Part shown: in pieces, positions 1-29,125 of the stretch
Layout: each line of letters begins with the position of its first letter
Numbering within the stretch: the first letter of the stretch is position 1
From: Planctomycetaceae bacterium
GTDB lineage: Bacteria; Planctomycetota; Planctomycetia; Planctomycetales; Planctomycetaceae
Assembly: GCA_947476295.1 (NCBI GenBank)
Contig: CANJQC010000056.1
Span: 1 to 32,564, forward strand
Length of the DNA stretch: 32,564 bases
Reading direction: 5' to 3'
Notes under the pieces: model-generated
What the model was told of the DNA's origin: nothing
The model's input: only the letters and a program-made list of their open reading frames with translations
Database searches by the model: none
Program-made: the position numbers and the translations under genes

Positions 1-242
1 CCTGCCGCAAACGGATCGATCGAATACAGCCCGATACCGCTGAAGACATGAACATGCAGATCGATCAACCCCGGTGCGACAATGAGGTCATCAGCCTCGA
101 TCACGTCTTCACTGTGCGATACAAGGTTTGGACCGGTCTCCTGAATCTGTCCGTTCGCGACACGAATATCAACTTGCTGCGGTGGACTTCCAGTACCGTC
201 GTAAACACTGCCGTTGCGAATCAGAGAATCCTTGGGATTCAT
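1..242 (-). CDS. Amidohydrolase/dihydroorotase-like metal-dependent hydrolase, N-terminal part
   Basis: Only the first 80 codons lie in the window; the gene continues beyond position 1. The visible part has the N-terminal beta-sandwich typical of cyclic amidohydrolases (IRNGSVYDGTG, then VDIRVANGQI) followed by APGLIDLHVHV, whose HxH supplies the first two metal ligands of the TIM barrel. The ATG at 242-240 overlaps the stop of the SelA-like gene as ATGA, so translation is probably coupled. Amidohydrolases of the 'amidohydrolase/deacetylase' group (the EF_0837 type) commonly neighbour SelA/DgaE-like PLP enzymes, which fits this operon. The substrate cannot be named from this fragment; a role in catabolism of an amino-sugar or related amide is inference only. 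Confidence 0.8.
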   Translation of the reverse strand, partial: MNPKDSLIRNGSVYDGTGSPPQQVDIRVANGQIQETGPNLVSHSEDVIEADDLIVAPGLIDLHVHVFSGIGLYSIDPFAA

Positions 243-1465
243 TGCGCAATCCTCTCACGGTGAGAAAACACGGCTTGGTGAATTGCGGAGATGATTTCCT
301 CGTCATTACCAGACTGCAGGCATTGCGAATTAAGGAAAGCCCGGTCGGGAGACCGCTCGTCCTCCGCCAGAACAATTCTTTGTGGCCGGTTTCTAAGTGT
401 CAGGAGCAGGTCACGCACCCTCAGGCCGTTCGGTTCAGAGCCCGATTCAATCTGCAGATTCGGATAGCGTTGTCCGTTCAGTCCACTGGCAAGTCGCGTG
501 ATGCGAAGTTCTGGCAAATCGCCAATGCCTTTGTAGATCCTGTCGATGGCGGCCTGCCAGCTCGCATACTCCGCCACATGGTCACGAATGGAGTAGCGTT
601 GCAGTGCCGCCATGACTCCAACGATGGATTCTTTGCTGACCTTCATCGAGCGACCAATCCCGTGTCTCGGCGGACGCGACAGCCAACCTGCTGCGATCCA
701 GTGCTGAAGTGACCAGGTTCCCTCGCGCACATCCATATCGACCATTTGTAACCACGCGCTGCGAATCAGGTCAGTTCGGCCACACAGAATTCCGGACGCC
801 TGCGGACCGCCGAGATGCTTACCGCCGCTGTACGCCACCAGATCTGCACCGCACCGGCTGAAGCTAGAAAGATTCTCGATCGGAGGCAAAGCACAGGCTG
901 CATCGACGATCAATGGAAGTCCATGACGATGAGCCAGTTCGGCGAGCGTTGTCAGATCGGGCTTCTCATCGACGCGCAGCCACACAAATCCGACCGCTGC
1001 CGTTTTGGATGTAATCGCCTGCTCAATCTGCTGCAGCGCGTCGATCGCGCGATAGTCGATCAATTTCAGCTTTGCACCAGACAGTCGAATCGCGTGGTCA
1101 TAGTCGAATGGGCCAGGCGACGGATAGATGATCTCATCACGTGGGCATCCGGAAACATCCGGCAGTTGGTCTATGATGTCCGGGCGACTTCCCGCGAGAC
1201 ACGCTGCGGCCGCCAATGTGAGTGCCGCCCCGGCTCCGCACGTCACAATGCCACCTTCTGTTCCGGTACACCTTGCTATGAGTGCGCTTGCTGCAGTGAG
1301 CAGATCATCGATCTCAAAATACTGAGCACTTGCGGCACTCATCGCAGCAATCACATCCGGATGCGGGCAACTGCCGCTCACGCGAGTTGCGTAACCAACA
1401 CCATTGATGATGGGACGAATGCCGAACTGTTCCAACATGCTGAATCGCACCGTATCAGACGACAT
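239..1465 (-). CDS. SelA/DgaE-like PLP-dependent enzyme
   Basis: This 408-residue protein has the fold-type I PLP layout of the SelA-like family, which includes D-glucosaminate-6-phosphate ammonia-lyase (DgaE). The cofactor lysine is K216 in SGGKHLGGPQASG. The Asp that pairs with the pyridine nitrogen is D188 in IVDAACALPP, and an N-terminal GAGAALTLAAAACLAG segment probably binds phosphate. It is not a true selenocysteine synthase on context: no selB or selenocysteine tRNA is visible. The start ATG at 1465 lies inside the end of the phosphotriesterase-like gene (11-bp overlap) and the stop overlaps the next ATG, so all three genes form one operon. A lyase or racemase step feeding the adjacent hydrolase is likely; the substrate is unknown. 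Confidence 0.8.
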   Translation of the reverse strand: MSSDTVRFSMLEQFGIRPIINGVGYATRVSGSCPHPDVIAAMSAASAQYFEIDDLLTAASALIARCTGTEGGIVTCGAGAALTLAAAACLAGSRPDIIDQLPDVSGCPRDEIIYPSPGPFDYDHAIRLSGAKLKLIDYRAIDALQQIEQAITSKTAAVGFVWLRVDEKPDLTTLAELAHRHGLPLIVDAACALPPIENLSSFSRCGADLVAYSGGKHLGGPQASGILCGRTDLIRSAWLQMVDMDVREGTWSLQHWIAAGWLSRPPRHGIGRSMKVSKESIVGVMAALQRYSIRDHVAEYASWQAAIDRIYKGIGDLPELRITRLASGLNGQRYPNLQIESGSEPNGLRVRDLLLTLRNRPQRIVLAEDERSPDRAFLNSQCLQSGNDEEIISAIHQAVFSHRERIAQ

Positions 1466-1907
1466 TGTCGCGCCTCCGTGAGAACGCTTTGGCGGGATTC
1501 ACTACCATCATCTGATGAATCTGCTGATCCGTCACGCCACGTTCTTTCAAAAGTGGCACGAAGGTCTCAAGCAGATACCCGTAACCCTTGCCGCCGGTGT
1601 ATTTCAGGTGGTTCAGCATGCAGATGTCTTCCGAAAGCAGAACCCGCTCAACGAAGCCCTCTCCGACAAGTGCAGCCACGTTATCTGCGCGGACGTATTC
1701 CGGCTGGTAGTCGAGATAGCCGATGTTATCGAGGATCTCCTGCGCCATCATGTCTTCATCATCGATAACGAGCTGATAGCCGTAACTGCTGTAGTGATCC
1801 ATTGCATCGAGAAACAGATGCTCATGCGGATAGGTCACTCCCATCTCCTCGGGCCGGATAATCCCCTGGACGGTAATCACCTCGCGAGATTTCTGACCGT
1901 CGTTCAT
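1455..1907 (-). pseudogene. Phosphotriesterase-family protein with internal deletion
   Basis: This 150-codon frame is intact, but the family (PTE/PHP type) normally has about 310-350 residues. The N-terminus shows IRPEEMGVTYPHEHLFLD with the HxH metal-binding pair. The C-terminus has VERVLLSEDIC (the metal-binding Asp), then GGKGYGYLLETFVPLLKERG and NPAKAF, the usual end of the barrel. The link runs straight from VIDDEDMMAQEIL to DNIGYLDYQPEYVRADN. The middle strands, with the bridging Lys and two metal-binding His, are therefore missing; I estimate about 160-180 residues. The frame is preserved across the deletion. The product probably cannot fold as a barrel. It is the first gene of the operon with the SelA-like and amidohydrolase genes, so it may survive only as a translated leader for them. 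Confidence 0.7.
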
Positions 1908-2147
1908 CAGCCACTCTCCTCAGAAACCGCTGTCAGTATGGATTAGAGAATCAAGGGAACGGAGTATACGCAGCCTGTCCGCAAGCAAGGCAATCTGCAG
2001 CAGACGGTTCTTGACTTTCAGGAAATCGTCCGAAACTGTGCAGTACAGTCACAACAATGAATGCTGCTTTCACTTTGCTACGTCGGGACACCCTGGGTTC
2101 CCGAGAGCTCAACTTTCGACCAGGTCCGGAGCTGATCTCCCATTAGT

Positions 2148-2356
2148 TTGATTTTTGAATCGACAATCCTGTGGTACAGTGAAGGTCCAGGCGCGAAGAC
2201 TTTTGGTGAACGCAATTTTGGAGACGGTGAATTGGGAGATGCTCGCAGAACAAAGCGACTGGTTCGCGTGGCAAATGCGATTATGCGGCATCCGGGAGGT
2301 TCGTTGCACGAGAAGATGGGCAGTCCGGCCGAACTGCAGGCCATGTATCATTTAAT
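2148..2356 (+). pseudogene. IS4-family (Tn5-like) transposase N-terminal remnant
   Basis: The translation TFGERNFGDGELGDARRT, followed by RLVRVANAIMRHPGGS and LQAMYHLM, matches the N-terminal DNA-binding domain of Tn5-type IS4 transposases (GD.RR..R...P..S....aeL.a.Y.lm). Homology stops around 2356. From 2357 the plus strand is the complement of the neighbouring TPR gene, so the open frame up to 2471 is chance read-through. No DDE catalytic core is present. The only initiation codon is a TTG at 2148. I could not identify IS ends or a target duplication in the 240 bases upstream. Confidence 0.65.
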
Positions 2357-3600
2357 GACGGAGCCGGCCATCGCGCCCTGGTCCTTGGTTTCCAGGACGA
2401 ACTCTTCGCTGGTCGAAGCCAGTTCCCCCGTAAGCTACATCGCTGGATTTCCCGCAGACGCGGCCTTCTAGGTAAATTGCGATTCTTCGGTGATCGCCAG
2501 ATCGATCGTCGTATCGCCCGCCTTGGCACGCCAGATGCCGACCAAGTCGGTTTCTGGTGCGTCGCTGCCGGCAAGCGTTGCCGACGACGCCGGGTCGGGG
2601 GTGGCTCCGGCGGCGCCAGTGCGTCGAGCATTCTCCTGGCCGTGGAATCCTTCGGCTGATTCTTGACGACCACTGCTAGGGCGTTCACCGCGTTGTCCTT
2701 CGAGTCGGTGGCCAAGTACTGGTAAGCCAGCACGAAGTGAGAAGAAGGATCGTTGGGATTGGACTCACAGGATTGCGCGAGTTTACGCAATTGCGACTGA
2801 TAGTCATCGACGTTGCCGTACAGGCTGCTCATCGTCGTCCAGTCCATTCCCGGCGCACTCGACAAGAACGAATTGAGCGCCGCCGCTGAGGACTGGTAGT
2901 CGCCCAAAGCAAACAGCGTCAGTGCTCGCACCTCATGTACCACCGGATCGCCCGGCAACTTCTGGAGCGCGGCGTCGAAATTGCCAAGCGCTGCTTGATA
3001 GTCACCCGACTTGAACTGCGAGAGTCCGTCGTCCAAAAGTTTCGTGGCCTGTTCCGATTCAGGTGTCTGCTGGTCGGCCTGAGCGATGGCATCGCCAGAT
3101 TCCGCGTCGGAGCTGACGTAGTTGTTGACAACCACGGGTAGCGAGTAGTCATAGGCAACTACTACAGTCGCGACGGGCTGCACACAGTAAGGATTGTAGT
3201 AACTGGTGCCATAACCCCACCCGCTGGTCATTGCGCCGAGGCCCCAGCCTACCGACGTCCAGGCCAGCGGTGCGTACCAACGACTTCCCCAATAACCGCT
3301 GTGGCAACCGTTGTACCAGCCATAACGCGGATTGATGCAGTGGTTGTGCCAATTGCCACCCCAACCGCCGCCGCCAACCCCCCAGCCAGAGATGCCATCC
3401 CCCCGGCCACCACCGGGATTGTTCCAGTTGTTCGGGCGGGCCCAACCTAGCCGATTGCCAATGTTATCAGTGCCGATGTTACCATCTGGAAAAGTCGTTG
3501 TCACGACGGCCGGGCCTGTCGAAGAGATCCAGCTGAAGAAAGGGATGAAGGTTGCAGTGGAAGGGAGGGCTGTGATCTGTCGGACGGCGGGCATATCCAT
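2357..3600 (-). pseudogene. Decayed secreted TPR protein gene
   Basis: The N-terminal half is rich in Gly, Trp, Asn and Tyr (GWGVGGGGWGGNWHNH, then YWGSRWYAP). It is followed by TPR-like helices (EQATKLLDDGLSQFKSGDYQ and DPSSHFVLAYQYLATD), a layout common in planctomycetes. Around 2595-2615 the coding sense moves to another frame. There it continues as DAPETDLVGIWRAKAGDTTI, the start of the usual C-terminal domain. That frame has TAG stops at 2470-2468 (where FTW would give Trp, so probably TGG to TAG) and at 2437-2435, followed by good homology (TGELASTSEEFVLETKDQG). It is cut at about 2357 by the IS4 remnant. The N-terminus has no signal peptide or Shine-Dalgarno and may be damaged too. The gene once lay downstream of the 3825-5459 gene. 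Confidence 0.7.
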
Positions 3601-3764
3601 GACGATTACCCGACCGACTAAAAACTACCTTGGCCGCTTCACCTCCGGCGAAGAATTGTTTTCACGACTACGGCTGGTATTTGCTGAAGGATGACATTGT
3701 GCCGCAGCAGTTTTAGGTTCGCGTCGCTCAGCAGTGTTTTTGAAAGCAGCACCGGCGAATTGTT

Positions 3765-3803
3765 AAAAAAAAGCTCGTTACGAGGCTCTGCCTCGTAACG
3801 AGC
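3765..3803 (-). terminator. Strong rho-independent terminator
   Basis: There is a perfect 14-bp inverted repeat, GCTCGTTACGAGGC at 3773-3786 and its complement at 3790-3803, with a 3-base loop. On the minus strand it is followed by eight T residues (A-run 3765-3772). It lies 21 bases after the stop of the 3825-5459 gene and ends that operon, separating it from the decayed TPR gene. Confidence 0.9.
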
Positions 3804-3824
3804 GGAGATGAGATTCAGCTTCGC

Positions 3825-5459
3825 TTACTGTGGCTGCGGGACATCCTCTGCGTCGTCCGGAGCGGGGTCGTCCAGTCGCACGAGCAGCCAGTTTTCAACC
3901 TTTTCAGGGCCGAAGTGAACCAATACCGGAGCTTCAGCCTGAGTCAGGTTGTACAAACCCGTCTCGACCACAATGTCTTCGCCTTCACCGATGCGCACCG
4001 CGACTCGTTGAGTCTCTTTATCGACTTGTCCCTGGATGGTCTGAGTCTCATCGGTCTCTGTGTTGTACAGCGTACCGCTGACAATGCCTTCCTTGCTGAC
4101 AGCCAGTTGCACGATGCGAGTCGGATCAACGTCTTTCTCGCCCGCTGACACCGTAAACGTTCCCAGAGCCAGCCACTCGGCCTTTTGTGCCTCCTCTTCA
4201 CTGGCAGGAGCAGGAACTGTCGCCAGGTCCGCCGCGCTTTGAGCGAACTCGGTGCTTGTCGCAACCTGATCCCCGTTGATGTAGACGGAGTTGCGGTTGT
4301 AGACGACATTGCCATCCTGACCGTAGTCGTAGTAAACCGGCTGAGCCCAGACTGTGGGTGGTGCTTGCCATGTAAACCAATTGACACAGGCTGCATATGT
4401 CGGAACAGTCCACCAGAATCTCCATGGACGATTTGCAAATCCATAGCCATAGTTCCAGCCACCCCAGCGACACGGATGGCCGTACCACCAGTTGCCGCGG
4501 AAGCAGCCGGGATTATTAAAGTGCCAACGAAATCTGCTGTGAACGCCGACGCCCCAGCCCGCCCAAAAGGCCGCTCGATTCGGATGAACTCCCCGCCAGT
4601 TGTGCATTCCGCCAATCTGATTCTGCCAGCGATTGTTGATGCTGGTCACACGACCTCGATCAATATTGGCCCACGTCGGACGATTGCTGATGCCAATGTT
4701 ATTGCCGATATTGACTTGGCCGATATTCACCCGTCCGTTGTTAATGACATTACTGTTTCCAATGCCATTTCCAATGTTGGGGCGATTACCGATTCCGTTA
4801 CCAACACCTGGACGAACGGTCCCCGGTAGCGTCGAAGGACGTAGCGGCCTATCCATTCCAAGGAAATCCCCGACGTCACCGACGGATGGCCGACCTCCGC
4901 TGCCTGGAAGATTCGGACGATTTCCAGCACTTGGTAGGTTCACGTTGGGGCGACCGCCGTCTGGACGGTTGGGAAGATTCACGTTCGGCCGGCTTCCTGC
5001 GCCACCACCCAGTTCTGGAATGCTTGGACGGTTTTCGGGACGATTGGGAAGATTGGGCCGTGTGTTACCGACATTGCCTCCCTGACCGGGCAACTTGTTG
5101 TCTGGCCGTGTCGTTGGCAGTGATGGGCGTGTTGATGGAATGGACGGACGTGTTGATGGTTTCAGACCGCCGGATGGCCGGTTAACCTGTGGAAGATTGG
5201 GCGTCGCGGGCCGAGTCGTCGGACGATTCACTGACGGTCGGTTTACTGGAGCACTGACGTTCGGCCTGCTGGGTGCCGGACGACTGGCTCCCAGATTGGG
5301 TGCACTCGGCCGAGCCGCCGGACGAGCGGCCCCGCTGCCACTGCGAGCAGATCCGCCACCGCCACGAAATCCTTGAGCGGAAAGCTCAACCGAAAACAGC
5401 ACCATAAACAGCACCATCATGATCGAAAGCGCAAGAGCGCTGAATGTGATTTTTCTCAT
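3825..5459 (-). CDS. Secreted RP/NIG-repeat protein ('protocadherin'-annotated planctomycete type)
   Basis: This 544-residue protein starts with a clear signal peptide (MRKITFSALALSIMMVLFMV, cleaved near SAQG). Residues about 30-210 are low-complexity repeats of Arg-Pro, Asn-Leu-Pro and Asn-Arg-Pro. Residues about 215-270 have NIGN/GIGNRPN repeats. Next comes a Trp/Tyr/Gly-rich domain (WAGWGVGVHSRFRWHF, then WWYGHPCRWGGWNYGYGF), then an ordered C-terminal domain (about 410-544) with regular beta-strand patterns. Planctomycete homologues are often labelled 'mu-protocadherin-like' or 'YXWGXW repeat' and thought to be cell-surface or matrix proteins; no biochemical role is established. It lies 20 bases after the SnoaL-like gene and ends at an intrinsic terminator. 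Repeats in DNA follow the peptide repeats. Confidence 0.75.
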   Translation of the reverse strand: MRKITFSALALSIMMVLFMVLFSVELSAQGFRGGGGSARSGSGAARPAARPSAPNLGASRPAPSRPNVSAPVNRPSVNRPTTRPATPNLPQVNRPSGGLKPSTRPSIPSTRPSLPTTRPDNKLPGQGGNVGNTRPNLPNRPENRPSIPELGGGAGSRPNVNLPNRPDGGRPNVNLPSAGNRPNLPGSGGRPSVGDVGDFLGMDRPLRPSTLPGTVRPGVGNGIGNRPNIGNGIGNSNVINNGRVNIGQVNIGNNIGISNRPTWANIDRGRVTSINNRWQNQIGGMHNWRGVHPNRAAFWAGWGVGVHSRFRWHFNNPGCFRGNWWYGHPCRWGGWNYGYGFANRPWRFWWTVPTYAACVNWFTWQAPPTVWAQPVYYDYGQDGNVVYNRNSVYINGDQVATSTEFAQSAADLATVPAPASEEEAQKAEWLALGTFTVSAGEKDVDPTRIVQLAVSKEGIVSGTLYNTETDETQTIQGQVDKETQRVAVRIGEGEDIVVETGLYNLTQAEAPVLVHFGPEKVENWLLVRLDDPAPDDAEDVPQPQ

Positions 5460-5479
5460 CGTTCTAATGCCTTTCGTGG

Positions 5480-6391
5480 CTAGTTTTGTGGTGCAGAGTC
5501 GGATGCGGTTGGTTTCGGAGCACGAATCACTTTGACAGCTGGTCCCGTTGGCTGAGGCTCACCGCCCACATCGTAACCGACCAGCTGTATTGTGAACGAG
5601 TCGTCGTCCAGTCGCTCCATAACGTAGGTACCCGAAGCGACTTCGCCGCTCGCCAGGGTCTGAGCCGACTTTGACAACCAGCTGTCACCATTTCTCGCCC
5701 ATGTCGATTCGCCGAACGATCCATCAGAATTGAAGGACCAGCTGCGAATCTGCTGACCTCGTGGATCCCAACCAATGACCTGCGTACCCGCCATAGAGAT
5801 GCCATCTTTGGTCTCCACCTCAAATGAACGCAGCAGAAAGGCTTGGTTTGCCGTCCAGCGAAACGTGGTTGCCACTTTCACGTCGCCGGAGTCATCGACC
5901 CATTCACCGACAAGCCACTCCAGTTCCTTCAAGGCATCTGCTGGTGACGCTGGCTGGGGCAGCGGCATTTCTTCGACAGTATCCAGTAACCACTTGTCAC
6001 CCTGATGAACCAGAATGGCGGTGTACTTCGAGACAATCGGTTCGGCATCGCTGAGCACGACCGTGGTTTCGCCTTCAACGCTGGCAACGTCTGCCGTAAT
6101 GAGTCGAATTTGATCAATCGTCGCTGAGAGTTTGAAATTGCTTCCCTCCTTCAGCACCTCAGTCATGTCCGCCTGAATCGCATCACGCCCCTCAGTGCGT
6201 TCGCCAGTCTCACGATCCGTGTGAGTCCCCTTTTCCGTCCAGAACCCGGCAACTTTTTCAGCCGTTTTTTGATTCAAGACATCGACGTATTCAGCCAGCG
6301 TCTCCCGCACGGCGGCCTCATCGGCATCGTCTGGTGGCACCGCGACCGCAGTTAACAAAAAAGCAAACGCAACAGAATATACTATTTTCAT
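5480..6391 (-). CDS. Secreted SnoaL-like (DUF4440) plus DUF1579-like protein
   Basis: I place the start at ATG 6391, not at the upstream ATG 6466. AGGAG lies 9 bases before 6391 and the protein then begins with a signal peptide (MKIVYSVAFAFLLTAVAV), giving 303 residues. Residues about 25-150 form a SnoaL-like/DUF4440 cone fold (AAVRETLAEYVDVLNQKTAEK, then FWTEKGTHTD, and DKWLLDTVEE at its end). Residues about 155-285 (LKELEWLVGEWVDDSGD, then QVIGWDPRGQQIRSWSF) resemble the DUF1579-type lipocalin-like domain. No catalytic residues are evident; ligand binding outside the cytoplasm is an inference. It is the first gene of a two-gene unit with the downstream repeat protein. Confidence 0.75.
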   Translation of the reverse strand: MKIVYSVAFAFLLTAVAVPPDDADEAAVRETLAEYVDVLNQKTAEKVAGFWTEKGTHTDRETGERTEGRDAIQADMTEVLKEGSNFKLSATIDQIRLITADVASVEGETTVVLSDAEPIVSKYTAILVHQGDKWLLDTVEEMPLPQPASPADALKELEWLVGEWVDDSGDVKVATTFRWTANQAFLLRSFEVETKDGISMAGTQVIGWDPRGQQIRSWSFNSDGSFGESTWARNGDSWLSKSAQTLASGEVASGTYVMERLDDDSFTIQLVGYDVGGEPQPTGPAVKVIRAPKPTASDSAPQN

Positions 6392-7057
6392 ATGGGACAA
6401 CTCCTGTGAGGCATAATGATCCAAAAGTGTTGCGAACGACGGCGCGCATGGCACTGCGACTCGCACTCTGCGGACTTACGGAAACGAACAGCCACAGGCT
6501 CTGCCGGAGAAGACTGCAGAATTATCGAGACTCAATGACCAGAGATTGGAAATAACAGAAACGCTGCTATCCCGCGTAAGTTTACAAACCCGGGAACAAA
6601 CTGAGCAAGCAGGCTGGTGCAGGTTCTGGAAAAATGCGGACCCTGATCGCGAGGAGTGCATTGAAAACAGCCTTGCCTTACGGCCGCTGAACGATCGCCG
6701 TATGTGAATATTGAAGGACTCAGTTTTATCGAGATTAAGGCGTGCCGTTGCCATACGCCGATAAAACTATCGGAAAACTCTCCTTAATTGTTAAATGCAA
6801 TACAAACTTCGCATACGGCCAGTTTTTCCGAAAGCACCGTCGGTGCACGTGGCTGTCGCTGCTCGGCGATCTCCATTTTGGCGAGAAGCGGGTTTGACTG
6901 CAGCCCGACTTCCGCTGAACGCTGAAGGCGAAATTCATCCTGCACTGAATCTTTCTCAGTCCGCACACCACATGCGGGAGTCTGGCTGTTTTTTAGGTTC
7001 GCCTTTTTCCGCTACACCAGTTTTTTTTCTGCTAAAAATCCTTAACGGCGTTGGGCA
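6392..7057. other. Long intergenic region without a convincing gene
   Basis: No feature can be supported here. On the plus strand an open frame of about 95 codons runs from 6421 to 6707 with a protein-like composition (RLNDQRLEITETLLSRV) but no ATG or GTG start and no family I recognise. It could be the tail of a lost gene. The promoter of the 5480-6391 operon should lie just right of 6391, but no clear boxes are visible. Confidence 0.4.
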
Positions 7058-7245
7058 GTGGGGGCGACAGCCACTTCGCCGCCCGCCGGTTACGCCACAG
7101 ATCGTCCCCGGATCTCACTGGGCAACGGCGAGTCGATTTTTCTCGCCGCCAAAGCCGCTTTGCGGCGATGGGAACATTTTCGATTGGGCTGGGTGGAGCT
7201 CTGGTCGCCTGACACGCCGATTCAGTCAGGTGAAGTTGTGGCGAT
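7058..7245 (+). pseudogene. DUF1990-family protein fragment
   Basis: The frame reads VGATATSPPAGYATDRPRIS, then LGNGESIFLAAKAALRRWEH, then FRLGWVELWSPDTPIQSGEV. This matches the family pattern VGAT...GY..D...LG.G...F..A..AL..W..F.LGWVEL with a following 'G..VAV'. The usual protein is about 170-190 residues; only the first half is left. The frame continues without a stop into a nucleoside-deaminase fragment, showing that deletion fused two unrelated genes. Confidence 0.6.
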
Positions 7246-7410
7246 CATGGCATGGACTGCTGCGCCGTGTCCGATGTACCAAGCAGCGATCCTATGGACC
7301 GGCATTGAAACAGTCGTCTTCGGCACGTCAATTCGTTCCCTGCAAAGATTGGGCTGGCGACAGATCGACATTCTGGCGGAAGTACTCGTTCGTCGCAGTC
7401 CTGCATGGAC
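7246..7410 (+). pseudogene. Nucleoside (tRNA/guanine-type) deaminase fragment
   Basis: The frame reads AAPCPMYQAAILWTGIETVV, then FGTSIRSLQRLGWRQIDILA. The family motif is EPCPMC..AI.W.GI..VVFG.S...L..LGW.QIDI. The zinc-binding PCxxC is damaged: the second Cys is now Tyr. The N-terminal half with the HAE active site is absent. The fragment is fused in frame to the DUF1990 fragment, giving a 177-codon chimeric open frame (7058-7591) that cannot be a working deaminase. Confidence 0.65.
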
Positions 7411-7520
7411 AACGCCCCACCACCGACCAGCCAGATATCTTTCTGAACGCCCTTTCGAATCTCAGCGATTGTGGTGTAAGGGGCTCCCTGAACAAAATGA
7501 ATGCGATCATCTTCAGTCGG
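7395..7520 (-). pseudogene. Dihydrofolate-reductase-family (RibD C-terminal-like) fragment
   Basis: On the minus strand one frame reads DDRIHFVQGAPYTTIAEIRK and then GVQKDIWLVGGGAL. The core kDIWLVGGG is the hallmark nucleotide-binding loop of the DHFR/RibD-C family. A stop precedes it near 7535, and the rest of the family's domain (which should follow GGGAL) is missing. Its 3' end meets the nucleoside-deaminase fragment on the opposite strand. Confidence 0.55.
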
Positions 7521-7625
7521 ATGGAAGCACTACAGATGGGTCAGTCTGGCTCAGATTCCGTATTTCGTGTGGGTCTCACTGGCGACAGTGATTGCAACTG
7601 TCAATCACGGTGATAAATTCTTGAC

Positions 7626-7898
7626 GTGAATGACTTCCCAAAGTGCTGGCGACGAAAAACAATCACTGTTGAAGTGGAAGCGAAAGCCAAAGAAGTGGCT
7701 GTGGCGAAGCTGCTCACAGATCTGAAGAACAAAAAATCGGAAGCAACGTGGTTTGTCTACCTGATGCGGTGCGCAGACTATTTGCTCTACACGGGAATCA
7801 CAAACGATTTGCCTCGCAGGCTGGAGGGGTGCGACTACATCACGTTTCGACTTTCCAAACACCGATGTTTTCAAAAAAGCACCTCAAAAATATGGTGA
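7626..7898 (+). pseudogene. Truncated GIY-YIG endonuclease-like gene
   Basis: The 90-codon frame has a Lys/Glu-rich N-terminus (about residues 10-40), then WFVYLMRCADYLLYTGITND and LPRRLE (residues 42-67), the first half of a GIY-YIG domain of the YhbQ/UPF0213 type. The catalytic Tyr pair and Arg are present. The rest of the domain (H..G..A.YT......L) is replaced by unrelated sequence from about 7830. The product would lack half the domain, so I call it a remnant. Confidence 0.6.
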
Positions 7899-8030
7899 AT
7901 ATTTCTCCCGCCGACAAGGATTTCGTCACTTCGGGGGAAGTCGGGTTAAGTCCACGCGATTGCAGGCAAGCTCCGCAGTAGAGGAAACGGTGACCTGAAG
8001 TGTTCAATGCAACCTGCTCTCGATCCATCC

Positions 8031-11000
8031 TTACTTTGGTGGAATCAATCGGATCGCTCGCAGATCAATCAGGGCCGTCGGCAGGGTTTCGGGGGCAGTA
8101 ATGATCAGCTGGCTGCGGCCACGATGGAGATCGATTGTCCCGCATTGCCATGTTTGATAGTGGTCCCATGTTCCGCTGCCGGGGACGCGGGCCGTGAGCA
8201 TGCGGTTGCCCGTGGAGAACTTGATCAGGCTGCCTGCTGTGGCGTCATCGCAGGCGAAGTCAAATTCGACAGTCCAGTGTCCGGATCTTGGTACCTCAAA
8301 CGTCCACTTGGCATAGTCGTCGGTCGATGTCCAGAAACCGAGGTTGCCGTATTTCTCTTCGAACACAAGATTTGGCCCGTAAATCTCGGCGGCCGATGCG
8401 GGCAAAGTCACGGTGCCGTCCGCGTCGGCCGCCACGAACTTCGGTGAGTTTCCTTTAAAGCGTTTCCACGGCGTGCCGGTCGACTGCACAAACGCAAAAA
8501 CGTTCGCGAGATCCTGAGCAGGAATATCCTTCTCAAGCCCTTCCGGCATCAGCGATCGTTTCGATGCCACCAACTCTTCGATGTCGGCGCGGACGACCGT
8601 GATCTCTTTTCCATCGTTGCCGATCAAAGTCAGACTGCCGCCGGTTTCGCCTTTGAGCATGCCCAAATGCTGCAGGCCGTCTTTTGTGACAACGGTGTAG
8701 ACCAAGAACTTCGATTCAACCGCTCGATTTGGATCCAGCACGGCTGTCAGAAGAGCCTCCATCGACCGGTCTTTCAATGCCGCAAGATCCGCGCCTACTT
8801 CTTTACCGATGTCCTGTAATCGGTGACAACTGCTGCAACGCTTTTCGAAGACAGCTTTGCCAGCGACTGGCTCGCCGGTGAGTGACGCCAGTTGCTCGCG
8901 ATACGAACTGATGACATCCACGCGAGTCGAGACGACATTGCCACTGAGCAATTGTCTTGCCTGCGTGGCAATTGTATCACTGCGATGATTCAGCAGGCTG
9001 TCTCTTTGCACGGCATCCAAGTCTGTCGCCGCCAGCGTACCTGCCTTGACGGCATCCAGCAGAAGTTGGATCGTCAATTCTCGCTGCAACATGGTCGTCA
9101 AAACTTCAGCTCGCACAGTCGGCGCGAAACTGTTCCAGTGAGATAGCAACTGAGTCACCGCGTCTTGCGTCGCGTTTCGTCCCATCACGCGCACAGCCGC
9201 GATTTGCACAGGCATCGGAGTCTGCGCCGTGAGCATTTCCGTCAGATCCAGCGAAGTATCCGATGCATAGCCGCTCGTGACTCCCCCAAACCGAACTGCG
9301 GCTGATCGTCGATCGGCGTCAATATCGTTGTTGCGAGCAATCTGCGCGGCTATGGCGTAGGCAGCCGACATTGCATTCTGAAACGCATCGTTCGTTTTCA
9401 ATGACACCGCGGCGTCACTGCTGAGAACATTATTGAGCGTGCTGGCCAGCAATTCAAACCGCGATGCCGGAGAGTCTGCCGTGACGGACTGCACGAGCAC
9501 CGTCAATGGTTCGCTCAATTGTTCCGATCGCCCCATCGCCGCCGCCTGAGCCAACAAGACGCCGATCAATTCTTCGTTCAGATCTTCAGCAGGCGCGTTG
9601 AGTGCCTCTTGGAGCACTCTGCCGATGTTGTCCGGTGTCAGCGATGTGAGGCCCGCGCTTCGCAGCATTTGGTCGCCAAAATTCCTACGGAGCATCTCGC
9701 CAAGCAACGCTGCTCCAGTGTCGCCTTGGGCTGCGCCGAGACTCAGTATGACCTGCAGTCGAACGGCGGGATCAGTATCACTCGCTAACGGCGTGAGGCA
9801 GGCTACTGGCTCGTCAACGTTGTGCGCGAGCGCATATTCCATGCATCGTATCGCCGCGACACGTACGTCGGGCGACGCATCATCTAAACCGCCGTCGGCG
9901 ATGAAGTGAATCGACTCGTTCCCGCAAATGGTTTCAATCGCATTCAGTGCGTGGACACGAATGGCAGGTTTGATTTCGTTGAGATAGAACAACAAATGCA
10001 AGGGCCCACAGGTATCGCCGTCGCTACAGGCTGCGACCTTGCGATGCTGCAGAATTCGTTGCGACGTATCCCTCCACCAGCCGTTCGGGCTTTTGAGTCT
10101 CTTCACAAGATCTGCGATTGGAATTTCATTCCATGGTTTTTCAAAGTAGCCATCTCGCTCCGTCGAGATGAGCCCAGTTCCTTCACCTTCATCCGCCAAT
10201 GCCGCTTGCCCCGTATCGACTGTTTCCGCGATGGGAGCGGCCGTTGTTGAATTACGTGGCGTCCCTGCAGGCTCGTCTCGGCGGAGCGAGACGGCTACGT
10301 TCGTCCCTTCTCCCCCGAAATCGGGGGAGAAGGTGGCCGCAGACCGGATGAGGGGGTTTGGCACAACGGACGTCACTCGATCATTCTTGCCAACCCCCTC
10401 ACCGTGGCCCTCTCCCCCGGCGCGGGGGAGAGGGGACGAAACAGAGGAACAGCATTCGGTCGCAGGCACGATCCGATAAATCCGCCCTTTATCATTTCCC
10501 GCGTACAGATTCATCTTCCGCTGATACTCGGGCGGAATCCATTCAGGATGCTCGATCACAGCGCGGTACATATCCGCAACCCAAATCGCTCCGTCCGGGC
10601 CGGTGCGAATCATCGTGGGACGAAACCAGTTGTCGCTGGAAGCAAGGAATTCCGACTCCTGTTCATCGGCCGCTCGTTCGCCTTTGAAGCCGTAGCCATC
10701 GCGCGTCATCACGAGCCGTGACACAAGGTTATGCACGGGCTCGGACGTGAACGTGTTGCCATAGTACTGTTCGCCGAGATAATTGTCGCGATAGATCATC
10801 GTGCTGCACGCCGATGTAAATCGATTTGCGAAAGCAAATTCATTGAATCGAGCCAGTGTGCGACTGGTCGGATACACCGGAGCAGCTCCAGGAATCGCCG
10901 ATACCTGAGCCGTGACTTGTGAAATCCCGGCGTGAGGATTTCGTCGCACGTAGCGATCTTCAAGCACATACTGATAGATTGGGTTTGAATTGTTGTTGCC

Positions 11001-14000
11001 GAACCAGTTCCCAAAGTCGTCACGTTCGCGTCCGAACTGCGTCTGCCCGCTGACAGTGTCGAGCCCGTTGGTATCCGGGTGGATTCGCAGATCGCGACCG
11101 CGGAGAGACAAAGAGGATCGAGGAGTAAGGATCGAGGATGGAGCAGATTCAGAGGGTTGCGATTTACTCACTCCTCGATCCTCACTCCTCGCGCCTTCTC
11201 CAGGTCTCACTCCCGTTCCCGCAATTTCCCCACCGCTGTCGCCGTTTGCCAGATACAGCCATCCATCCAGTCCCCAGCGAAGTCCGTTGACTCGATGCTG
11301 CTGGTTACCTTCGACGAAGCCCTGGTAAAGTGTTTCCCTGACATCGGCATCTCCATCCCCATCGGTGTCTTCAGCGTAAAAAATCTCGGGAGCCATCGTG
11401 ATGATGACTCCGCCTCGCCAGCAATGGATGCCGTTGGGAAACGCGAGCCCGTCCAGGAATGTCGTGGCCTTGTCGTAAACGCCGTCTTTGTCGGTGTCTT
11501 CAAGGACACGAATGCGACCGCCAATGTAGCCATCTCGCTCCGTCGAGATAAGCCCCGTTCTTTCGATCTCATCAGCCGATGCCACTTGCTCTTTGCGATC
11601 AGCTTGCCTTTTCGGCGCCGGCGTTCCTGAGCCGGTTGGCGTCCCCAAAGGCTCGCCTCCGCGGAGCGAGACGGCTACGTTTTCGCCACTCGGATAATCC
11701 CCCATCTCCACGACCCACAATCGCCCACGTTCATCCCAATCAAACGCAACCGGATCGCGGATGAGTGGTTCCGAAGCTGCAAGTACCAACTTCAGATCCG
11801 GCTTCGTTGTCATGCACTTGAGCGATTCCTCAGGGCTCTTTGGAGCCGGGAAGTCGCGTTGTAGTGCCTCCGAGTAGAACGCATGCGGCATCAGTTTCTG
11901 AACGGCGTCACACAGCACATCTTCGGCCTCCGGTGCCAGACGTGTCGGTCGTCGATAGTAGAGCATCGACGAATCGGCCTCGTAGCCGCCTTCGCGAAGC
12001 ACTCTTGCCGATGCGATGTAGCACGGCACGTCGTTGCTGTAGGCGTTAATCCACAGCCGGTCGCTGTCGAACATGTCGTTCATGCGAATCGAGTAATCCA
12101 CCACGACCTCGCCGCCGAGGAATACCATCGCAAGGTCTTCACCGAAACACCATGTTTGCACGGGATAGTCGGGAACTGTCGATGGGATCTCTTTGCCGTC
12201 GTCGAGCATTTTTAGAAAGTCGCGGGCTCGCGAACCGGTGACGCCGGGTTGAGTCGCTTGCTGTTCCCATTCCGCCCGCGATGGCAAAGGTCCCAGCGGC
12301 AGATCGATGCGGGCCATGCGGCAAGTGATGTGTGGGTTGATGCGTCTTAAGTAGCCATCTCGCTCCGCCGAGATGAGCCTTGATCTTTCGCTCTCATCAG
12401 CCGATGCCACTTTGGATGCGGCGGGACTTGCTGGTGCTAGAGACGGCGCACGTGAATCACTTGGCGTTTCGGAAGGCTCGTCACCGTGGAGCGTGACGGC
12501 TACATTGCTCAAAACTCTCGTCACCTCATCGGCCATTGTGCGCCCATGCACTTTCGCTTGTTCGTGAGTCCCCCGTGGTGACGGATTGGCGTCCGCGCCG
12601 CAGCCGATGGCAATCAGAGCCACCGCGCCGGGATGATCGGTTTCGAGCATATCCGCAGCGAAGCCAGCCCAGTCGCCGCTGATCTGATTGAACTCACCGG
12701 TTTCCGTTGTGCAGTGGCAGGCATAATTTGCGAGCACGGCGATCAGTTTTCCGTCCATATCATGAGCTGCCAGTACGGGGACTCGTTTGTCCGTTGGACC
12801 ATCGGGAACTTCGCCGAAGTTGGTCCATTTGCCGTTGGCGATCAATCGTCGATTCATTGCAAAAGTGGTCTCGCCGAATCCTGACGACAAGTGCCCAAGC
12901 CGCCGCGATTTGATCGCCATATCGACAACTTCGACGAGCTTTGCGATCAACTCAGTTTCATACTGAGCAAGGTGCGCCGCGTGGTCATCAGGAATCGTAT
13001 CAAAAATATTTGGCAGGAAACCCCGCAGCCACGGTGCGGAATGGGAGTGAGTGCAAGAAATCGCAAATCGCTCGCGTGGGATCTTGTGTTTGGCCGCAAT
13101 GCGTTCGAAAACGGCTTCGGTCATTTCGAGAGGCACGCCGCAGTTATCCACAGTGAGGAGAATCGCAAGGGGTGAGGATTGAGGATCGAGGATTGAGTGC
13201 TCTGTGTTGCGATTTTGCGGCAGACTCGATCCCAAATCCTCACTGCTCGTTCCTCCCACTGCCAGTGCCCTCGCATGAATCCTCGCGGCAATGCCTTCGG
13301 ATTCCTTCACACGATCGCCGTAACCGGTGAGCCGCACAGGATACTCCGGCGTGATATCCACGACCGCCGCGCCGACGGGGACCGGTTCGTACTCGGCGAG
13401 CGGGGCGGCGTCAGCCCCCCGGTACTTTGCTTCTTCTGGTGCATTGGTCGTCGTCGTACCGGCGGGCTGACGCCCACCGCTCGCCAAGGCGTGTTTGTGT
13501 TCGGCAAGGAATTCGTCGAAGGAAAGTCGATACATCAAGTCCGGCAGATGAGCCGTGTCTTCGTTGATCCAGCAAAAGTGACGGTCGTGGATGAAGAAAC
13601 CGTTAGTAGTGCTATCACGACGCCGAAGCGGGAGCAGCTTGTCGCTTTTGGTTTCAAGCAATGCTTCAAGAACGGCCGGCGGAAGCATGGCGATGTCGTT
13701 TTGACTGGGGTGCGTCAAACGGAACTCTCGTTTTGCCTTCTTCTCCTGGAAATATCGGCTTATCCCGCGCGTCGAAGTGTTGTGCATGACACCAAAATGA
13801 AATGCGGCTGTCACTTCAGCAGCGGGTTTCGACGCCTCCAAAGTTTCAGACACCTTTTTGAGACGATCGCCCACCTGCAGCAGAGGACATGGATGATCGA
13901 TCGTATGGCATTCGATGCTCAGGCCTTCGTCGAGATACGCTAGACGATTGCCGTCTTTGGTTCGATCAGCCGCTTCGTCACCCGACTGGGCAACGCAATT

Positions 14001-14042
14001 CCAGAACATGCAGCAGGCGAGTGCAGCAGCAAGGCGCAACAT
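8031..14042 (-). CDS. Giant secreted protein: ceramidase-like domain, PVC propeller, HEAT-like helices, cytochrome c and CBM-like domain
   Basis: The start is ATG 14042, with AGGAG 9 bases upstream; the TTG at 14048 is too close. It encodes 2003 residues with a signal peptide (MLRLAAALACCMFWNCVA). Residues about 35-60 (CHTIDHPCPLL) match the HTxxH motif of NodB-type polysaccharide deacetylases, but the rest of that domain is absent. Residues about 220-735 resemble the neutral ceramidase N-terminal domain (VDITPEYPVRLTGYG, CTHSHSAP, YACHCTT). Residues about 745-1190 are the PVC dehydrogenase-type propeller (RIRVLEDTDKDGVYDK, QFGRERDDFGNWFGNNNSN). Residues about 1300-1720 are HEAT-like helices. 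CSSCH at 1736-1740 is the haem site of the PVC cytochrome domain, followed by a CBM-like beta domain (about 1880-2000). Seven palindromic repeats are translated in frame inside it (listed separately). It lies 187 bases after the DUF58-transglutaminase gene. It probably acts on extracellular lipid or polysaccharide; the reaction is unknown. Confidence 0.85.
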   Translation of the reverse strand: MLRLAAALACCMFWNCVAQSGDEAADRTKDGNRLAYLDEGLSIECHTIDHPCPLLQVGDRLKKVSETLEASKPAAEVTAAFHFGVMHNTSTRGISRYFQEKKAKREFRLTHPSQNDIAMLPPAVLEALLETKSDKLLPLRRRDSTTNGFFIHDRHFCWINEDTAHLPDLMYRLSFDEFLAEHKHALASGGRQPAGTTTTNAPEEAKYRGADAAPLAEYEPVPVGAAVVDITPEYPVRLTGYGDRVKESEGIAARIHARALAVGGTSSEDLGSSLPQNRNTEHSILDPQSSPLAILLTVDNCGVPLEMTEAVFERIAAKHKIPRERFAISCTHSHSAPWLRGFLPNIFDTIPDDHAAHLAQYETELIAKLVEVVDMAIKSRRLGHLSSGFGETTFAMNRRLIANGKWTNFGEVPDGPTDKRVPVLAAHDMDGKLIAVLANYACHCTTETGEFNQISGDWAGFAADMLETDHPGAVALIAIGCGADANPSPRGTHEQAKVHGRTMADEVTRVLSNVAVTLHGDEPSETPSDSRAPSLAPASPAASKVASADESERSRLISAERDGYLRRINPHITCRMARIDLPLGPLPSRAEWEQQATQPGVTGSRARDFLKMLDDGKEIPSTVPDYPVQTWCFGEDLAMVFLGGEVVVDYSIRMNDMFDSDRLWINAYSNDVPCYIASARVLREGGYEADSSMLYYRRPTRLAPEAEDVLCDAVQKLMPHAFYSEALQRDFPAPKSPEESLKCMTTKPDLKLVLAASEPLIRDPVAFDWDERGRLWVVEMGDYPSGENVAVSLRGGEPLGTPTGSGTPAPKRQADRKEQVASADEIERTGLISTERDGYIGGRIRVLEDTDKDGVYDKATTFLDGLAFPNGIHCWRGGVIITMAPEIFYAEDTDGDGDADVRETLYQGFVEGNQQHRVNGLRWGLDGWLYLANGDSGGEIAGTGVRPGEGARSEDRGVSKSQPSESAPSSILTPRSSLSLRGRDLRIHPDTNGLDTVSGQTQFGRERDDFGNWFGNNNSNPIYQYVLEDRYVRRNPHAGISQVTAQVSAIPGAAPVYPTSRTLARFNEFAFANRFTSACSTMIYRDNYLGEQYYGNTFTSEPVHNLVSRLVMTRDGYGFKGERAADEQESEFLASSDNWFRPTMIRTGPDGAIWVADMYRAVIEHPEWIPPEYQRKMNLYAGNDKGRIYRIVPATECCSSVSSPLPRAGGEGHGEGVGKNDRVTSVVPNPLIRSAATFSPDFGGEGTNVAVSLRRDEPAGTPRNSTTAAPIAETVDTGQAALADEGEGTGLISTERDGYFEKPWNEIPIADLVKRLKSPNGWWRDTSQRILQHRKVAACSDGDTCGPLHLLFYLNEIKPAIRVHALNAIETICGNESIHFIADGGLDDASPDVRVAAIRCMEYALAHNVDEPVACLTPLASDTDPAVRLQVILSLGAAQGDTGAALLGEMLRRNFGDQMLRSAGLTSLTPDNIGRVLQEALNAPAEDLNEELIGVLLAQAAAMGRSEQLSEPLTVLVQSVTADSPASRFELLASTLNNVLSSDAAVSLKTNDAFQNAMSAAYAIAAQIARNNDIDADRRSAAVRFGGVTSGYASDTSLDLTEMLTAQTPMPVQIAAVRVMGRNATQDAVTQLLSHWNSFAPTVRAEVLTTMLQRELTIQLLLDAVKAGTLAATDLDAVQRDSLLNHRSDTIATQARQLLSGNVVSTRVDVISSYREQLASLTGEPVAGKAVFEKRCSSCHRLQDIGKEVGADLAALKDRSMEALLTAVLDPNRAVESKFLVYTVVTKDGLQHLGMLKGETGGSLTLIGNDGKEITVVRADIEELVASKRSLMPEGLEKDIPAQDLANVFAFVQSTGTPWKRFKGNSPKFVAADADGTVTLPASAAEIYGPNLVFEEKYGNLGFWTSTDDYAKWTFEVPRSGHWTVEFDFACDDATAGSLIKFSTGNRMLTARVPGSGTWDHYQTWQCGTIDLHRGRSQLIITAPETLPTALIDLRAIRLIPPK
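10146..10298 (-). repeat. 153-bp in-frame palindromic element, copy A
   Basis: The ends form a terminal inverted repeat: GTAGCCATCTCGCTCC at 10146-10161 against GGAGCGAGACGGCTAC at 10283-10298. On the coding strand it begins exactly at a codon (GTA GCC) and encodes 51 residues from VAVSLRRDEP to LISTERDGY. It sits 2 bases from a second palindromic element, at the joint between the propeller (GRIYRIVP) and the helical region (FEKPWNEIP). Confidence 0.9.
10301..10439 (-). repeat. CTCTCCCCC-type hairpin-ended repeat inside the coding sequence
   Basis: The ends are complementary (TCGTCCC and TCTCCCCCG at the left against CGGGGGAGAGGGGACGA at the right) and each end also folds as its own hairpin, with GGTGAGGGGGTTGG-like sequence between. 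It is translated as SSPLPRAGGEGHGEG and on to FSPDFGGEGT. The 139-bp length is not a multiple of three, so flanking bases must restore the frame. Similar GGGGGAGAGGG repeats are familiar between genes in many bacteria; here the unit is coding. Confidence 0.8.
11119..11191 (-). repeat. GGATCGAGGA-type palindromic repeat inside the coding sequence, copy 1
   Basis: The 20-base arms at 11119-11138 and 11172-11191 are complementary with a single mismatch (CGAGGAGTAAGGATCGAGGA). It is translated as ARSEDRGVSKSQ to SSILTPRSSL. It falls between the propeller motifs YLANGDSGGEIAGTG and LRGRDLRIHPDTNG, where homologues have a short loop. Confidence 0.85.
11526..11678 (-). repeat. 153-bp in-frame palindromic element, copy B
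   Basis: It has the same terminal inverted repeats as copy A (GTAGCCATCTCGCTCC at 11526, GGAGCGAGACGGCTAC ending at 11678), the same length, orientation and codon phase. It encodes VAVSLRGGEP to LISTERDGY. It interrupts the first blade of the PVC propeller between EMGDYPSG and GGRIRVLEDTDKDG, which are normally separated by only a few residues. Confidence 0.9.
12351..12503 (-). repeat. 153-bp in-frame palindromic element, copy C
   Basis: This is the most diverged copy: GTAGCCATCTCGCTCCG at 12351 and GGAGCGTGACGGCTAC ending at 12503. It again has 153 bases, the same orientation and the same codon phase. It encodes VAVTLHGDEP to LISAERDGY. It lies in the ceramidase-like domain between ADEVTRVLS and RRINPHITCRMARIDLPLG. 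Confidence 0.9.
13172..13243 (-). repeat. GGATCGAGGA-type palindromic repeat inside the coding sequence, copy 2
   Basis: The arms at 13172-13190 (GTGAGGATTGAGGATCGAG) and 13225-13243 are largely complementary. It is the same family as 11119-11191. It is translated as SSEDLGSSLPQNRN to SILDPQSSP between ARALAVGG and AILLTVDNCGVP of the ceramidase-like domain, again at an expected loop. Confidence 0.75.
13395..13485 (-). repeat. GGCGAGCGG-type palindromic repeat inside the coding sequence
   Basis: The left arm GGCGAGCGGGGCGGCGTCAG begins at 13395 and is mirrored by CTGACGCCCACCGCTCGCC ending at 13485, with inner CCGGTAC/GTACCGG extending the stem. It is translated as LASGGRQPAGTTTT to YRGADAAPLAEY. 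It is a linker between the N-terminal region and the ceramidase-like domain. Confidence 0.8.
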
Positions 14043-14228
14043 CGGCAAGATCTCCTAAGGGGACACCATGTAAGAGGCGGGAATGAACAGCCTTCAGGCA
14101 GTATATGCACTGGCCGACGAAGTCGCACGCCAATGGCGATTGCCAGACGGGCATTAATTTCAATGCCAGATTACACGGCCTGATTTAAAGAGCGTGAGAG
14201 AATCCCGGAATTTCTGCAGATCCAGCCG

Positions 14229-22464: not shown

Positions 22465-22612
22465 TTTGCATCTCGATGGTTGGTTTGGTGTCTGGTTTTG
22501 GCGACCGATCGCGATTTCGCAGTCGCCCTCGCCCGGAGGATTGTAGTACACGATGTGCCTGAGCACATCCGTTGCGAATCTCCTTCATTGCCACAGCCGC
22601 AACTGTAATGAT

Positions 22613-22923
22613 CTTGGCGCGGGCTTCGCCCGCAACCCAAATGAGTCATTGAGTTAGGCCTTCAGGGCCGGCACATCGTCTGCCGGTGGCGTGAGCCACC
22701 GGAAACGAATACTTGAATGACTTGAGGCCCGAAGGGCCGATACATTTGCCAAGTGCAATGGCACTCCAACCGATTTATTGTATCGGCCTTTCCGGCCTCG
22801 ATTGGTCCGATTGCATCAGACCGGGGCCTCACAGCCCCGGCATAGGATGTGCCAACCCTCCGGGCCTGAACCGCAAACAATTTATGGCAGTGCATTACGA
22901 ATCAAATGATCAGCCTCAGACAT
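22613..22923 (+). repeat. ~312-bp multi-hairpin repeat, copy 1
   Basis: From CTTGGCGCGGGCTTCGCCCG to AATGATCAGCCTCAGACAT it contains at least six GC-rich hairpins. They include GCGGGCTTCGCCCGC, GCCGGTGGCGTGAGCCACCGG (21 bases, from about 22681), GAGGCCCGAAGGGCC and ACCGGGGCCTCACAGCCCCGG. It aligns end to end with the reverse complement of 28765-29077, with roughly 80 percent identity by eye. Stems are better conserved than the spacers between them. No gene is present in it. Confidence 0.85.
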
Positions 22924-28764: not shown

Positions 28765-29077
28765 ATGTCTGAAGCTGATCATTTGATTCGCAATGCACTT
28801 CCATGACTTGTTTGCGGTTCAGGCCCGGAGGGCTGGCACATCCTCTTGCCGGGGCCGCGAGGCCCCGGTCTGATGTAACTGGAACAATCCAGGCCTGAAA
28901 GGCCGATACAAATAAATCAGTTGGCGTGCATTTGTACTTGGCAATTGTGTCAGCCCTTCGGGCCTCAATTCCTTCAAGTATTCGTTTCCGGTGGCTTACG
29001 CCACCGGCAGAGGATGTGCCTGCCCTCCGGGCCTTATACAACTAAACGATTGAGTTGCGGGCGAAGCCCGCGCCAAG
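28765..29077 (-). repeat. ~312-bp multi-hairpin repeat, copy 2 (inverted)
   Basis: Read on the minus strand it starts CTTGGCGCGGGCTTCGCCCG and ends AATGATCAGCTTCAGACAT, matching copy 1 (22613-22923) over its whole length. Stem sequences differ in step in some places, for example GGCCTTCAGGGCC in copy 1 against GGCCCGGAGGGC here, and TCACAG against TCGCGG in the loop of the ACCGGGG stem. It fills most of the gap between the AAA+ gene and the second PVC-cytochrome gene. Confidence 0.85.
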
Positions 29078-29125
29078 TTCCATCCCTCCCACCAGATCAA
29101 GCCTTCGATTAAGGATGTGATAGCC

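Follow-up and report, generated by a model that had tools for sequence, protein, structure and literature searches.

The window analysed here is a 32,564-nucleotide stretch of contig CANJQC010000056.1 from a Planctomycetaceae bacterium (assembly GCA_947476295.1; genome G000, 5,986,839 bases or 6.0 Mb in 252 contigs). Its minus strand carries a gene for a multidomain protein that harbors three in-frame copies, E1, E2 and E3, of a 153-bp palindromic unit (Table 1). The unit is a REPIN, that is, a spacer between two oppositely oriented hairpins of the GTAG type of repetitive extragenic palindrome (REP). This element forms a new family within the known GTAG-REP/REPIN kind. The novel part is the kinship of its coding copies and their apparent spread within one gene.

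Three REPINs in one host gene

The host protein comprises a ceramidase-like domain, a DUF7133 domain, HEAT repeats and a cytochrome c domain, the last matching barely above the cut-off (21.5 versus 21.3 bits). A structure model and fold search gave a neutral ceramidase fold for the first domain; the fold search returned nothing on the inserted element. Codon comparison with two orthologous loci, L113 (nonsynonymous divergence, dN, 0.115; synonymous divergence, dS, 0.77) and L111 (0.209 and 1.76), yields dN/dS ratios of 0.15 and 0.12, a pattern by which the gene is under strong purifying selection.

The three copies lie where a preliminary description of this DNA had placed them, share one orientation and codon phase in a single minus-strand frame, and each open with GTA GCC. 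Their peptides align without gaps and share the end motifs VAV.L...EP...P and LIS.ERDGY, one on each side. A tandem array was rejected, the copy starts being 1380 and 825 bp apart. The count of three inserts in one gene holds for this element, and the gene contains four further in-frame palindromic inserts described below. In AlphaFold models (52 and 36 sequences, predicted template modelling score 0.83 and 0.87) the predicted local distance difference test score (pLDDT) stays under 50 across nearly the whole of E2 and the larger part of E3. It is also lowered in the R-family inserts, and one further low block, at about 351-360 of model 1, corresponds to no insert. According to these models, each copy probably adds 51 disordered residues.

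We fetched 80 orthologous loci, several of them partial, and aligned the 67 longer orthologous frames. No arm of the E family was found at up to seven mismatches in 78 of the 80 loci, L111 and L113 being the only exceptions. In distant relatives the alignment shows the flanking protein to be continuous without the segment, and the same 51-residue segments were not found there. Any insert of at least 14 residues occurs in 7, 4 and 6 of the 67 orthologues at the E2, E3 and E1 loops, respectively, sequences not covering a loop being scored as without insert. The earlier proposal of in-frame insertion at loops is thus borne out, the loops lacking an insert in most orthologues.

Table 1. Features of the host gene and of the palindromic elements inserted in it.
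Feature	Coordinates	Strand	Location, evidence or remark
Host gene, 2005-aa multidomain protein	8031..14048	-	Single open frame; 67 orthologous frames aligned
REPIN copy E3, 51 codons, residues 516-566	12351..12503	-	Loop of ceramidase-like domain
REPIN copy E2, 51 codons, residues 791-841	11526..11678	-	DUF7133 loop after WVVEMGDYP
REPIN copy E1, 51 codons, residues 1251-1301	10146..10298	-	Between DUF7133 and HEAT parts
E1 REP arm, A-type, hairpin	10146..10174	+	Arm scan, stem-pairing counts
E1 REP arm, G-type, hairpin	10270..10298	-	Arm scan
E2 REP arm, A-type, one mismatch	11526..11554	+	Arm scan
E2 REP arm, G-type, two mismatches	11650..11678	-	Arm scan
E3 REP arm, A-type	12351..12379	+	Arm scan
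E3 REP arm, G-type, two mismatches, stem variant TCACG	12475..12503	-	Arm scan
F-family in-frame insert, CTCCCCCG...CGGGGGAG hairpin at both ends	10305..10440	-	Adjoins E1
R-family in-frame insert (R1), GAGGATC/GAGGAGT heptamer arms	11095..11205	-	Inverted-repeat listing, arm search
Second R-family in-frame insert (R2)	13160..13255	-	Same loop holds REPIN in same-genus L111
C-family in-frame insert, GGCGAGCGG..GGCGTCAGCCC	13395..13485	-	Arm search, orthologue alignment

Hairpin arms, genomic copies and the associated transposase

The arm consensus consists of GTAGCC, a 6-bp stem, the 6-nt loop CTCCGY, the stem partner and GAGCC. The stem covaries. Over the 58 arms scored in the own genome, 26 have G-C and 23 A-T at pair 7-24, and 31 have T-A and 24 A-T at pair 10-21. 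Overall, 323 of 348 stem cells are paired, compared with 154 and 47 when the partner is slid by one base. Stems are similarly paired in two further genomes, G001 (173 of 174 cells, 29 arms) and G002 (95 of 96 cells, 16 arms). The terminal inverted repeats noted earlier do exist (32-nt arms 88% complementary in E1 and 78% in E2, that of the third copy being absent among the 25 longest listed for the window), with the correction that each end is a REP hairpin of its own. The suggestion that flanking bases prolong the repeat is supported by two A's that precede GTAG in most arms (position -3 in 53 and position -2 in 46 of 57).

Passages of Di Nocera et al. (2013, PMC3733652) give GTAG followed by a short stem-loop as the tag of GTAG REPs, and the tetranucleotide stands at this 5' position in the arms described here. 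For a Marinomonas REPtron, another paper (PMC8266576) describes a GTAG separated by two bases from a perfect stem of 5 bp. The passages of PMC3733652 also describe inverted dimers, a REP-associated tyrosine transposase (RAYT) with flanking REPs, the TAG of a REP serving as stop codon, REPs inside open reading frames (ORFs), of which a single gene may hold more than one (as O. terrae uvrA does), and Planctomycetes among the carriers. A GTAG REP doublet with a REP-flanked RAYT is thus a published class, and the earlier suggestion of a family of undescribed kind was not borne out. In-gene dimers or groups in those passages mostly encode 20-30 residues, and the clusters of Thauera and R. conorii 43-82, whereas in the window gene one doublet encodes 51 residues, there are three per gene, and their spacers are of common descent. 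Inverted REP doublets as a replicating unit, with a RAYT in the genome, are also the REPINs of Bertels and Rainey (2011, PMC3116915), which the part of that work considered here presents as extragenic, whereas the window copies are coding. The enterobacterial RU elements (Delihas 2007, PMC2759123) are reminiscent in being units of 103-168 bp, similar to miniature inverted-repeat transposable elements, that are translated inside host genes; their abstract makes no mention of REP hairpins, a RAYT or within-gene spread. No account of the present family or of within-gene REPIN spread was found in titles and abstract openings of the open-licence literature, an absence of little weight. REPs are usually treated as extragenic; the present REPIN, which is linked to a RAYT, has coding copies whose kinship can be traced.

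We searched the genome with a 23-nt arm pattern at up to three mismatches. This search revealed 49 matches, and none for the reversed pattern used as control, so that further copies of the element are present. A blastn search with copy 1 gave 58 matches at E<=10, the weakest resembling chance. An ungapped scan of the fetched stretches counted 21 doublets, three of them in the window, and 17 single arms. Among the 18 non-window doublets, one has two extra arms and three have one arm at 7-8 mismatches, owing to indels; of the single arms, one is weak (7 mismatches). The blastn-only places C98 and C142, hidden from the scan by indels, are excluded from this census, and the extra arms at C29:17363 and C22:14783 are not among its 38 places. 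A place was taken as inside an ORF when a frame of at least 200 residues reached 90 nt past the element on both sides. By this rule the dispersed family is mainly extragenic, the three window copies being genic: only 2 of 36 non-window places at up to six mismatches are inside an ORF, the C72 doublet and the C204 single arm. Both lie within about 110 residues of the N-terminal end of their ORF, and the true start may be downstream. The weak arm at C6:26389 (7 mismatches) is in a 1046-residue frame. At about 4931-4959 of L104 (G000:C204), a lone REP arm seems to provide ATG GCT AC, from which a frame of up to 1208 residues could start.

Matches to the Y1_Tnp domain number eleven in the genome, ten of them above the cut-off. 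One is the RAYT, a 223-residue ORF (28.7 bits, cut-off 23) located between gyrA and gyrB (Pfam) on contig C29. It contains the motif MPNHVHLL, which we take to be RAYT-like. One complete REPIN stands on each side of this gene, and its TAG stop falls in the GTAG of a REP. No such arm was found at up to eight mismatches in flanks of up to 1.5 kb of the other ten Y1_Tnp loci, and a 20-nt stretch that blastn matched close to the C14 gene is no better than chance (E 2.9). The same arrangement occurs in G001, a genome of the same genus that also bears the label G056 (identical coordinates and scores), where a 74% identical RAYT on C73 has doublets on both sides. Beside this RAYT, L264 (G001:C73) shows a row of REPINs at 2156-2599, each overlapping the next at the end, which suggests growth in tandem.

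Arm matches number 49, 51 and 35 in the genomes with a RAYT relative, G001, G002 and G046. G084, of the same genus, has nine arm matches, seven of them with two mismatches, and no RAYT relative at E<=1e-10; no arm was found in G003. Single-stranded cleavage has been characterised biochemically for other TnpA-REP proteins (parts of PMC8266576). From the arrangement of these sequences, the REPIN is most likely mobilised in trans by the RAYT of this genome.

Kinship and apparent spread of the coding copies

A profile built from five coding peptides was searched in the own genome, G001 and G002, and scoring covered 150 of 170, 176 and 207 first-look candidates. In this set the own genome has, in a long frame, three copies that are full and open, all in the host gene; G001 has two full copies and one right part, and G002 one partial copy (profile positions 10-51), all in the orthologue. 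The five full in-frame copies in long frames, from two genomes, are thus all in this gene. Most other full-length matches hold stops, and the stop-free ones are in frames of only 67-204 residues; one G002 match was assigned to a 436-residue frame and contains TGA. Of 101 genomes of the bacterial family, 3 have a match at E<=1e-5, and these fall in 2 of 58 genera. The preliminary description had viewed the element as a mobile unit generally tolerable as protein, which is too broad.

The spacers were compared ungapped for copies of equal length and then end-anchored against 33 other doublets, gapped global alignment being uninformative (0.55-0.61 even against shuffles). The spacers of the coding copies share a common descent. 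The five full coding spacers are 45-75% identical, values that, for each pair, codon shuffling attained in 0-18 of 5000 trials, whereas comparison with five other 153-bp copies, that of C72 included, gives 22-40% and a top z of about 3.5. End-anchored over 45 nt (best of five), most of the 33 other doublets score 0.24-0.49, and the ten coding pairs 0.42-0.84. To hold the coding spacers unrelated to all other copies would be too strong, since a few non-coding copies share one side. As far as these comparisons go, likeness over the whole spacer is found only among coding copies, yet these are not cut off from the family.

The two full copies of L111 have spacers that are 75% identical with a dS of 0.36; for the host genes, L111 and the window differ by a dS of 1.76. 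The low spacer value suggests that one copy, the R2-loop copy being the simplest choice, postdates the split. The two copies agree at 11 of the 12 bases that precede the element and at three of the nine that follow it. Matches of 11/12 were reached in 123 of 1,978,745 trials with random codon-phased pairs of stretches from the gene, some of them perhaps within copies. Cleavage at CT 5' or 3' of REPs has been reported (parts of PMC8266576). The flank pattern fits cleavage outside the hairpin, but it fits template switching too. In both L111 and L113, E1 is a mosaic with another family.

Differences between the coding spacers number 147, 116 and 161 at codon positions 1, 2 and 3 over all ten pairs, and the spacer dN/dS is about 0.8 for the L111 pair, 0.9 for E2-E3 and 0.4 for E1-E2, imprecise values from 31 codons each. 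The part of E1 common to L113 has a dS of 0.30 on 27 codons, under the host value, perhaps because a REP arm is conserved as DNA. Coding spacers contain 11-16% T and the others 18-32%; frame 0 is stop-free in the coding spacers, with stops in frames 1 and 2, and is open in 2 of 17 other two-armed doublets of the own genome. On these codon data the coding spacers look weakly constrained. An ordinary repeated motif of the host protein family, kept for its function and with a DNA likeness that merely reflects the peptide, could account for the identical length, frame and orientation, and for spacers closer in the gene than outside. Such a repeat is highly improbable and largely refuted by arms at dozens of other places, mostly outside ORFs and with base-paired covariation, and by the armless orthologous loci; the codon-position differences and the spacer dN/dS, set against 0.15 and 0.12 for the host, speak against it as well.

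In the reading that we consider likely, REPINs mobilised by the RAYT and tolerated as near-neutral disordered linkers have spread within the gene. A REPIN would be moved in trans, as single-stranded DNA, by the RAYT of the genome. One with a spacer readable in one frame would have entered a tolerant loop of the host gene, and this open version would then have reached other loops of the same gene, via the RAYT or by copying. Insertions at other coding sites, in other frames or in reverse orientation would mostly be removed by selection. Each in-gene copy would be a nearly neutral, disordered linker of 51 residues, whose frame stays open solely through the need for the host protein. From the coding copies compared here, the element does seem to spread within its host gene.

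Once the first insertion was made, the later copies may instead have arisen without any transposase, through template switching or recombination from loop to loop. This version is possible, if rather doubtful: the coding spacers are alike over their whole length, the stretch shared in L111 takes in about 12 bases beyond the 5' end, and E1 is mosaic, while the L111 copies diverge exactly at the 3' REP end and the target loop of the orthologues has no sequence able to recombine.

Several observations weigh against the reading of RAYT-mobilised REPINs that spread within the gene. One-sided spacer likeness is seen in C1 (right, 0.56, z 4.0), in C7 (left, 0.58, z 5.0) and in a G001 copy (right side only, 0.51, z 4.3), and C1 scores 51 bits in the coding-peptide profile, with two stops. 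Within 1.5 kb of the RAYT relatives in G002 (58%) and G046 (48%), no such arm was found. E2 is present in the window genome and in L111 and absent from the nearer L113. Finally, the length is a multiple of three in 9 of the 18 non-window doublets, and copies of 153 bp also occur outside the gene; because of this the equal length of the copies is no proof of selection, and was dropped as a sign of it.

Other palindromic families in the same loops and in other genes

The four extra in-frame palindromic inserts of the window gene belong to three families, C, R (twice) and F. The same loops are reused by such families among orthologues. L111 has a REPIN in the R2 loop and C-type elements in the E3, R1 and pre-E1 loops, and L112, L113 and L122 hold other palindromes in the E2 loop. 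In a shuffle test, inserts of the E2 loop have 13 or 14 bases of a 14-base inverted repeat in 5 of 68 sequences (window, L111, L112, L113 and L122), above all 40 shuffles, and those of L136, L145 and L148 show no inverted repeat by this test, which misses true cases (window E3, with 12 of 14, R1, R2 and E1 fail). A DUF7133 paralogue, L236 (C60) 362-3994(+), has an R element in the same loop as E2. The reused loops are a natural map of insertion-tolerant sites.

A sublineage adapted to coding life is a more speculative and somewhat doubtful extension: a REPIN with a one-frame-open, T-poor, linker-like spacer would multiply from loop to loop in one gene, and, with several palindromic families sharing loops, mobile elements would repeatedly supply and replace linkers. 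The kinship of the coding copies, the insert-free orthologues and the transposase in the genome together make it testable in one gene whether palindromic DNA feeds protein evolution or is merely tolerated.

Rickettsia palindromic elements are in-frame palindromic inserts that are translated as extra peptide segments. To our knowledge, no RAYT is known for RPE-1, one of these elements. The likeness drawn in the preliminary description is an analogy, a repeated palindromic unit in frame at tolerated loops, by description and not by sequence, and in another phylum; these elements are cited in PMC3733652, in the part considered. An element of this type, independent of any RAYT, would suit the in-frame insertion at tolerated sites, the tolerated peptide, and the R and C families of this genome, which are mostly inside ORFs among the fetched stretches (R places outside the window at up to one mismatch, 4 of 4). 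It is improbable for the E family, with its GTAG hairpin, its REP-flanked RAYT and its scarcity inside ORFs, where RAYT-mobilised REPINs remain the reading that we prefer.

Arms of these families were also observed in frame in other genes. R arms occur in a PurL-like protein, L235 (C5) 5301-8459(-), and in a Cas4-Cas1 fusion, L079 (C14) 128-2215(-). A leucyl-tRNA synthetase, L234 (C2) 7751-10834(-), carries in-frame arms of the R and C families immediately ahead of its editing domain. L233 (G000:C154) 3655-11118(-) is a 2488-residue UvrA-type frame with two UvrA sets and six in-frame C-family arm matches (near 4801, 5799-5899, 6634 and 10068-10261; peptide TPASGGRQPSGTT...GGLTP.ARQSQ); the O. 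terrae uvrA, too, is reported with REPs in the passages of PMC3733652. F hairpins are in frame in an adenylation-domain protein, L241 (C24), a DUF7133 protein, L245 (C92), and an M56 peptidase, L098 (C103), and 6 of 16 F matches are inside ORFs, two of these in the window gene. R-like palindromes at L236:737-847, L112:5517-5621, L122:8214-8312 and L113:675-773 have arms of differing short repeat units (GAGGA.., GAAAGCG, GAGTCCA and similar), so that the sequence shifts and the form stays. Elsewhere in the window, 22610-22923 and 28765-29080 form a long inverted repeat with blocks of 170, 89 and 65 nt, 84-89% complementary and about 6 kb apart.

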